A DNA stretch of 64,000 bases from Burkholderiales bacterium (GTDB lineage Bacteria; Pseudomonadota; Gammaproteobacteria; Burkholderiales; Burkholderiaceae_C). Both the position numbers and the translations under genes were made by a program. Where the stretch lies: positions 124,001-188,000 of the forward strand of contig JACRAY010000018.1 in NCBI GenBank assembly GCA_016213325.1, in the 5' to 3' direction. The notes beneath the pieces were generated by a model. That model saw only the letters and a list, made by a program, of their open reading frames with translations, ran no database searches and was not told where the DNA came from. This document shows, in pieces, positions 49,706 through 53,985 of this stretch (within the stretch, counting starts at the first letter, position 1; each line of letters starts with the position of its first letter).

Positions 49706-52926
<3,221 letters not shown>

Positions 52927-52969
52927 GGTTTATGTAAAAATGAAGTTGAACTTCATTTTTACATAAACC
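52927..52969. promoter_or_regulatory. Perfect 43-bp AT-rich palindrome abutting the DUF4143 gene start
   Basis: Two 21-bp arms (52927-52947 and 52949-52969) are exact reverse complements around a single base (G52948). It is about 75% A+T in a GC-rich region. The inner end touches the GTG start of the DUF4143 gene and the outer end is two bases from the zipA stop codon; a further 10-bp palindrome TTCAGCTGAA follows at 52971-52980. On the minus strand TACATA ends four bases before the GTG and could be a -10 element, making the mRNA leaderless. Candidate operator, cruciform or nuclease target. Confidence 0.85.
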
Positions 52970-52971
52970 AT

Positions 52972-53985
52972 TCAGCTGAACAACCGGCGCGCTTGCGGCG
53001 ACCCGGCGGACAGGTCGTGCGCGTCCAGCGTGTCGTACAGCTTCTCCAGGTCGGCACCGATCACGTCCAGCGCATCGGCGCGGATCACCTCGCCGTTGTC
53101 GTCGGTGATGAGCCCGTCCATCGACGCGGCCAGCGCGATGGCCGACTCGCGCATGCGCACGAACGGCTGCTCGCTGCGCGGCACCTGCGCAACGTCGAGG
53201 CTCAGGGTGACCTCGCGCACCGCCGTGTGCGCCGGATCGTCGGACATGGCGGCTTGCGTATCGAAGGCCAGCCCCAGCACGGCCGCAGCACCTGCCGCAG
53301 GGGCCGGCAGCACCATGCGCCCGGGGATGGCGCCCGCGACGAAGCCCAGCTTGCCCGCATGCTGCTGCAGGTAGCCCGGGCTCCAGGCGGCATTGCGGGC
53401 GCGCAGCGTGAAGCCCAGCTGGGCATCGTGGTCCACGGCGAACTGGTCGAGCTCGCGGGCACGCGCGACGGTATCCAGCATCTCGGGCAGTTCCGGCGAG
53501 CCGTTCACCGCATCGGCGAAAGCCTGCACCTTCACCACGAACTCGGAAAACTCGATCTCGTTCAGCGCACCCGCGCGGTTGGCCAGCTGCACGCCGGCCT
53601 GGAAGGCGCCGTAGCGCTGCCCGGCCCGCGGCGTTTCCCACTGGCCCGAAGCCTCGTTCAGGCCTTCGATGGCAAACGGCTTGCTGCCGGCGCGCCGCGT
53701 GGTCGGCATGGCCGCGATGGCCGCGTCGCCCGACACCGGGCCTTCCAGCGCGATCGGCGCAATGGCGTCGATCAGCGCATCCAGCGCGGGCTTGCGCTCG
53801 GGCGGCGGCGGTTGCGTCATGGGCGCATCGAATGCGGGCTCCACCGGCAGCCCGGGGGCGCCGTCGGGCAATGCCACTTCGGGCATGCGCGGCGCCAGGC
53901 GGCGGTTGTTCCACGCGTTCCATGCCACCAGCGCGGCGAGCACCAGCCCGCCCAGGATCGCCAGGCCCACCGTGAACGAACTCAT
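52972..53985 (-). CDS. zipA: Cell division protein ZipA-like
   Basis: A 337-aa protein with an N-terminal membrane anchor (about 5-23, 'FTVGLAILGGLVLAALVAW'), a short basic segment, a Pro-rich linker, and a C-terminal ZipA FtsZ-binding-type domain (about 195-320). ZipA tethers FtsZ to the inner membrane. Sequence conservation is modest; the assignment rests on architecture and on the smc-zipA-ligA order known for Burkholderiales. Overlaps the smc stop as ATGA. Stop codon lies two bases from the palindrome. Confidence 0.82.
   Translation of the reverse strand: MSSFTVGLAILGGLVLAALVAWNAWNNRRLAPRMPEVALPDGAPGLPVEPAFDAPMTQPPPPERKPALDALIDAIAPIALEGPVSGDAAIAAMPTTRRAGSKPFAIEGLNEASGQWETPRAGQRYGAFQAGVQLANRAGALNEIEFSEFVVKVQAFADAVNGSPELPEMLDTVARARELDQFAVDHDAQLGFTLRARNAAWSPGYLQQHAGKLGFVAGAIPGRMVLPAPAAGAAAVLGLAFDTQAAMSDDPAHTAVREVTLSLDVAQVPRSEQPFVRMRESAIALAASMDGLITDDNGEVIRADALDVIGADLEKLYDTLDAHDLSAGSPQARRLFS

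Follow-up and report, generated by a model that had tools for sequence, protein, structure and literature searches.

The window, a stretch of 64,000 nt, carries a perfect palindrome at positions 52,927-52,969 directly upstream of a gene for an AAA_14/DUF4143 protein, and comparison of homologous sequences identified such symmetry as a conserved, DNA-level feature of much of the AAA_14/DUF4143 family. The reading that we somewhat favor is that the palindrome is the left end, and perhaps also the operator, of a one-gene mobile unit that consists of the palindrome and the AAA_14/DUF4143 open reading frame (ORF), that lies between zipA and ligA, and whose own protein would recognize and process the palindrome. 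As this layout recurs with changing letters in many related genes, what is commonly listed as a supposed virus-defense gene may be a compact mobile unit linked to a palindrome of its own.

The two arms (52,927-52,947 and 52,949-52,969) are 21 nt long each, 100% complementary and separated by 1 nt according to both sequence reading and a repeat finder, which agrees with the exact 43-bp palindrome with one central base described in a first-pass annotation of this DNA. On the minus strand the palindrome, to which no strand is assigned, runs directly into the GTG start codon (52,926-52,924) of the AAA_14/DUF4143 gene, and the stop codon of the zipA-position gene (52,972-52,974) is located two bases from it, at the coordinates implied by that annotation. 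By our own arithmetic (0.28-0.30^21 x 64,000), a perfect palindrome of 21 pairs is expected by chance in 64 kb with a probability of about 1e-7 to 1e-6, in line with the improbability claimed earlier. Searching the whole 5.4-Mb genome with 19 nt of the arm and up to 3 mismatches recovered the two arms themselves as the sole matches. The exact palindrome pattern matched one of 299 genomes of the bacterial family, namely the source genome, and a related palindrome pattern matched 2 of 14 genomes, with one match each. The palindrome is therefore not scattered through the source genome away from such genes, an outcome that the first-pass annotation had named as contrary to its proposal, and its uniqueness there rules out a REP-like palindrome repeated through the genome. 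No match to a sigma-70-type promoter was found in positions 52,700-53,200.

The AAA_14/DUF4143 gene (51,754-52,926, minus strand) encodes 390 aa, with an AAA+ ATPase followed by DUF4143, as assigned from Pfam (AAA_14, E 9.5e-28; DUF4143, E 5.2e-48), PADLOC, conserved residues and a structure model (mean pLDDT 94.7, pTM 0.93). The PADLOC PDC-S01 profile matched residues 2-376 of the protein (E 8.6e-104), which places both by profile in the same protein family, for which COG1373 is presumably a further label; NCBIfam and PHROGs profiles gave nothing useful for the window protein. At the right end of the unit, the TGA stop of the gene overlaps the ATG of ligA as ATGA (51,754-51,757). The ligA gene itself (49,706-51,757, minus strand), encoding NAD-dependent DNA ligase, was recognized by Pfam DNA_ligase_aden (E 3.5e-85) and synteny. 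To the left of the unit, the gene at 52,972-53,985 (minus strand) matched ZipA_C with an E value of 0.0025 and 18.1 bits, compared to a Pfam cut-off of 23 bits, and its putative name zipA rests on this sub-cut-off score and on its syntenic position beside ligA.

Residues G25, R27, G30 and K31 (Walker A), D74 and E75 (Walker B), E285, D317 and E333 were invariant in 55 sequences, and K335 of the E333-x-K335 motif was kept in at least 90% of them, so the intact ATPase motifs and E/D/E-x-K nuclease residues noted earlier in the window protein are conserved across these sequences. Based on the model, the conserved residues and general knowledge, we read DUF4143 as a predicted winged-helix part plus a predicted PD-(D/E)XK nuclease part; S01 is described as an ATPase fused to a PD-(D/E)XK domain in the accessible part of a published report (PMC12988326). 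The nearest solved folds for the ATPase part were the PABY2304 Walker ATPase of Pyrococcus (PDB 2qen), STAND ATPases, RuvB and Cdc6/Orc1, and 2qen compared to the window protein with 17% identity, an rmsd of 6.5 and TM-scores of 0.45-0.49. No solved relatives were recovered by single-sequence search, and the profile and fold matches were distant ATPases plus weak nuclease matches such as Cas4, Can2 and Card1. RuvB and Cdc6 have an AAA+ core followed by a winged helix, an arrangement resembling that predicted for the window protein, but to our knowledge they have no nuclease domain. The source genome also carries a decayed family copy (G000 C34, L006:1475-2310) from which most of the N-terminal part is gone, with a 35-bp palindrome still located before the remnant.

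Homologues were drawn from 80 genome-contig loci (the best 80 of 268), genomes of the bacterial family (of 299, 63 gave a match at E 1e-40, and 30 loci were used), plasmids and further regions. From 146 loci, 142 homologues were scored after L006, L038, L048 and L114 had been dropped, with the duplicates L175 and L181 removed earlier. L173 was kept although it is identical to L113, as were closely related pairs (for example L021/L022 and L150/L154), so that the 142 loci are not fully independent. Palindromes scoring at least 9 at positions -80 to +10 were found in 75/142 homologues, compared to 88/5312 other windows of the same loci and 10/1420 shuffles. Around the best center before the start codon, at least 13 of 18 symmetric pairs were observed in 92/142 homologues and in 37/2459 control windows; 90 of these 92 strong palindromes had a single unpaired central base, and 50/142 homologues remained below 13 symmetric pairs. 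A second set comprised 40 regions from 11 multi-copy genomes, chosen before their upstream DNA was viewed, with 4 of them shared with the first set. Of the 36 new regions, 13 reached 13 or more symmetric pairs out of 18, compared to 7/468 control windows. Palindrome enrichment upstream of DUF4143 homologues, the test set by the first-pass annotation, was thus strong in both sets.

Not every relative has the palindrome: none with a score of at least 9 was seen near the start of L157 and L162, both from alphaproteobacterial plasmids, and L058, with an ORF 93.8% identical to that of L079 at an unrelated site, lacked the palindrome of L079. The Moraxella bovis plasmid copy has 21-bp arms around 3 bases, located 5 bases before the annotated start. 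Two tandem palindromes were seen upstream of the gene in L068, and family members were also seen on the small Wolbachia plasmid pWALBA2 (L156) and at the very end of a CRISPR array on a Thermus plasmid (L155).

The letters of the palindrome vary between subfamilies, and the register from the center is common, with an outer arm of about TG(C/A)AAAT and a center of AAGTT-N-AACTT. When the center was fixed by the outer pairs and the remaining pairs were tested, 75.9% were paired compared to 34.5% (sd 1.7) with shuffled partners (n=70), and all four pair types occurred among them. With the center fixed by the inner pairs, the corresponding values for the outer pairs were 61.2% and 35.3% (sd 1.4; n=92). 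Between the two copies of 15 related pairs, all with strong palindromes, 178 cells were unchanged and 18 differed on both sides yet still paired, whereas 52 were paired in a single copy and 22 were unpaired in both. The palindrome center of the orthologous pair L007/L196 differs on both arms.

The edges of the shared DNA were compared in 34 pairs of related copies having an ORF identity of at least 70% and flanks without detectable similarity. Pairs were picked starting with the best, so that no locus entered more than one, and a further 26 candidates were left out whose flanks were homologous or not long enough. In the 12 pairs with a palindrome in both copies, identity upstream of the palindrome was 0.15-0.33, rising to 0.37-0.42 over the 10 nt next to its outer edge and to 0.60-0.85 within it, and over all 34 pairs ungapped identity dropped from 0.50 before the stop codon to 0.31 after it. 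A palindrome edge was called in 31 pairs and not in the other 3. Of the 31, 20 had local alignments starting no more than 10 nt from the edge, 8 had alignments starting 31-97 nt inside it and 3 had alignments extending 19-32 nt beyond it. At the other end, alignments ended within 64 nt of the stop codon in 31/34 pairs and stopped at least 4 nt short of it in both copies in 24/34. Among 9 pairs of at least 80% identity, 5 ended before the stop with unrelated tails and 4 at or beyond it; in L027/L029, for example, the alignment ends 10 and 43 nt before the stop. Because tails may also diverge fast, these endings suggest rather than demonstrate a host-supplied stop. A tenth close pair, Azotobacter L163/L284 (90% identical), has a 41-bp palindrome in common with one difference, and its alignment continues, patchily, for about 98 nt beyond the palindrome on the upstream side and for 7-8 nt after the stop. 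Defined ends were present overall, though not sharp in every pair, and these alignments showed that the DNA which copies at unrelated sites have in common mostly runs from the palindrome to the stop-codon region.

The search for the site found in the window covered 39 other congeneric genomes, all of which have ligA. From the zipA-position gene to ligA the gap was -7 to 86 bp in 29/29 other loci read, compared to 1,214 bp in the window. A paralogue in the source genome (L007) lies between nnrU and a DUF296 gene, with its palindrome starting on the nnrU stop and its TGA overlapping the next ATGA. Of 11 other loci, 6 were empty, 1 contained an orthologous unit (L190/L196) and 4 did not have nnrU there. 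The L107 copy is located between acyltransferase-type and GNAT-type genes (types that we assigned from the translations), at a distance of 24 bp from the former, and its site was empty in 2 of 5 congeners and uninformative in 3. Since L007 and L107 had been picked for the empty-site test after the TGA/ATG overlap was already seen, the overlap at all three sites is a selected fact; in 13/142 loci, an uncontrolled count, the stop overlaps an ATG, GTG or TTG that is followed by 60 or more open codons.

Filled and empty states were also found in Thermus thermophilus, where a unit occupies the pxpA-CRISPR junction of SNM6-6, SG0.5JP17-16 and JL-18, while that of HB8, AA2-20 and HC11 is empty. A second T. 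thermophilus plasmid site (L151, L211, L213) holds a full copy in HB27 and internally deleted copies in HB8 and HB5018, which retain both ends, with the palindrome plus about 60 nt and the final codons left. The Thermus palindromes are short, and the unit there has some extra DNA on the left. Altogether, comparison of these loci showed that the unit occupies gene junctions that are uninterrupted in relatives. An origin of the palindrome from the target site was ruled out because the inspected empty junctions (zipA-ligA, nnrU-DUF296, acyltransferase-GNAT and Thermus) contain no palindrome.

The defined ends and empty sites in relatives that characterize mobile units in general are therefore found here, and the terminal inverted repeats at both ends of classical insertion sequences are not. 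A second arm copy near the stop (at least 13 of 18 matches) was detected in 2/86 loci and 5/1043 control windows and is absent as a rule; a palindrome lies 9 nt after the stop in L062, and a near-copy of a second upstream palindrome lies 14 nt after the stop in L081. At the three junctions read for a target-site repeat, only ATG could repeat in the window and nothing was evident at the L007 and L107 sites. Judged by search scores, near-identical copies within one genome were noticed neither in 299 genomes nor, among the matches listed, in 46 genomes. One genome had at least 18 matches at E 1e-30 among the matches listed, and two copies on Runella sp. SP2 plasmids were 86.7% identical. Family relatives were present in 10/50,697 phage records, all of them unannotated faecal contigs.

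Under the favored reading, the palindrome and the AAA_14/DUF4143 ORF would have arrived together between zipA and ligA by horizontal movement. The protein of the unit probably uses its predicted winged-helix part to recognize the palindrome, which would serve as a symmetric DNA site. As an operator, the palindrome would allow the protein to repress its own gene, and as a unit end it would be processed, that is cleaved, by the ATPase and PD-(D/E)XK nuclease during a movement that the unit itself may drive. Regulation and mobility could use one site, as in some transposons, which bind ends that contain their promoter. Whether the unit drives its own movement is the principal doubt about this reading. 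The unit edges and empty sites support the self-mobilizing unit proposed in the first-pass annotation, whereas we only infer its self-driven movement; the self-regulation proposed with it is plausible. Against a mobile unit stand the lack of a second palindromic end, of a clear target duplication and of noticed near-identical intragenomic copies, the 50/142 homologues without strong symmetry, L058 without its palindrome, the edges that fall inside (8/31) or outside (3/31) the palindrome boundary, and the overrun in L163/L284. In old insertions, flank decay alone could leave the operator and ORF as the common part.

The main rival, to which we give appreciable weight while judging it short of probable, is an autoregulated defense or accessory gene, in which the palindrome serves only as an extended dyad operator, located close to where transcription starts and recognized by the winged-helix part, and which spread by ordinary horizontal transfer and host recombination with flanks trimmed by deletion. 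The location just before the start codon, the common register and the usual lack of a copy at the other end agree with this explanation, as do the search scores, by which near-identical copies within one genome went unnoticed in the 299 genomes and, among the matches listed, in the 46. Position and predicted winged helix would fit an autorepressor with a dyad operator, and the family is the PADLOC candidate PDC-S01, a common defense candidate according to the accessible part of PMC12988326. However, even between copies of 86-97% identity located at unrelated sites the shared DNA has tight limits, with exceptions among such pairs, and the unit fits closely into gene junctions at three sites (zipA-ligA, L007 and L107). 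Additionally, most operators are shorter than 21-bp perfect arms. An RNA-level hairpin in the mRNA leader, exerting translation or termination control, would likewise account for the position just before the start codon and for the strong fold, computed as single-stranded DNA with 10 flanking bases per side (-21.2 kcal/mol, z -10.4), but we consider it improbable. Among mismatches in 90 palindromes, G.T (35), a wobble pair in sense RNA, was no commoner than A.C (39), therefore neither RNA strand is favored, and no terminator-like site was found around the palindrome. From these patterns, the palindrome is best read as a DNA site rather than an RNA structure. Nothing was found in favor of a chance palindrome or an assembly artefact unrelated to the gene, which we regard as highly improbable given the uniqueness of the palindrome in its genome and the enrichment before homologues from many separate assemblies.

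The accessible part of PMC12988326 reports 29,494 bacterial and 9,986 archaeal PDC-S01 systems, ranks PDC-S01 as the fourth most common defense across prokaryotes and describes experimental validation as pending for most PDCs; no word starting with "palindrom" occurs in that part of the text. PDC-S01 is listed as a single-gene phage-defense candidate, to which the case in the window adds a conserved palindrome and unit edges. No mention of either was found in our search of openly accessible papers on DUF4143, COG1373 and PDC-S01. The conserved palindrome and the bounded units raise the question of whether the PDC-S01 family has been counted as defense because it is mobile.

Like the unit in the window, IS200/IS605 and REP/RAYT elements link one small gene to palindromic DNA. 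These elements use HUH nucleases, with a hairpin at each end in IS200/IS605 and scattered palindromes in REP, whereas the window protein has no HUH match in Pfam, one palindromic end is the rule and the palindrome is unique in its genome. IS91/Helitron rolling-circle elements resemble the unit in lacking terminal inverted repeats, in having a palindrome close to one end and in showing no clear target duplication; unlike them, the window protein has AAA+ and PD-(D/E)XK parts instead of an HUH relaxase or helicase domain. If the unit does move itself, it would do so by a mechanism different from those of the mobile elements in this comparison. More tentatively, and in our view rather doubtfully, PDC-S01 would be a new class of mobile element with one gene, one palindromic end, no terminal repeats, a right end that falls at or within the coding sequence and often leaves the stop to be provided by the target, an AAA+/PD-(D/E)XK protein that moves the element by acting on its own palindrome as a cruciform or hairpin, and a liking for gene junctions. 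The widespread palindrome with co-varying letters and the bounded units offer a directly testable DNA substrate.

Elsewhere in the window, the repeat finder detected a repeated and inverted CGCAGAAGACGCAGAA-type motif at positions 327-430, which resembles an intergenic repeat. Runs of CGCAGAGGCGCAGAG, similar to the CGCAGAAGACGCAGAA-type motif, were seen downstream of the gene in L104.
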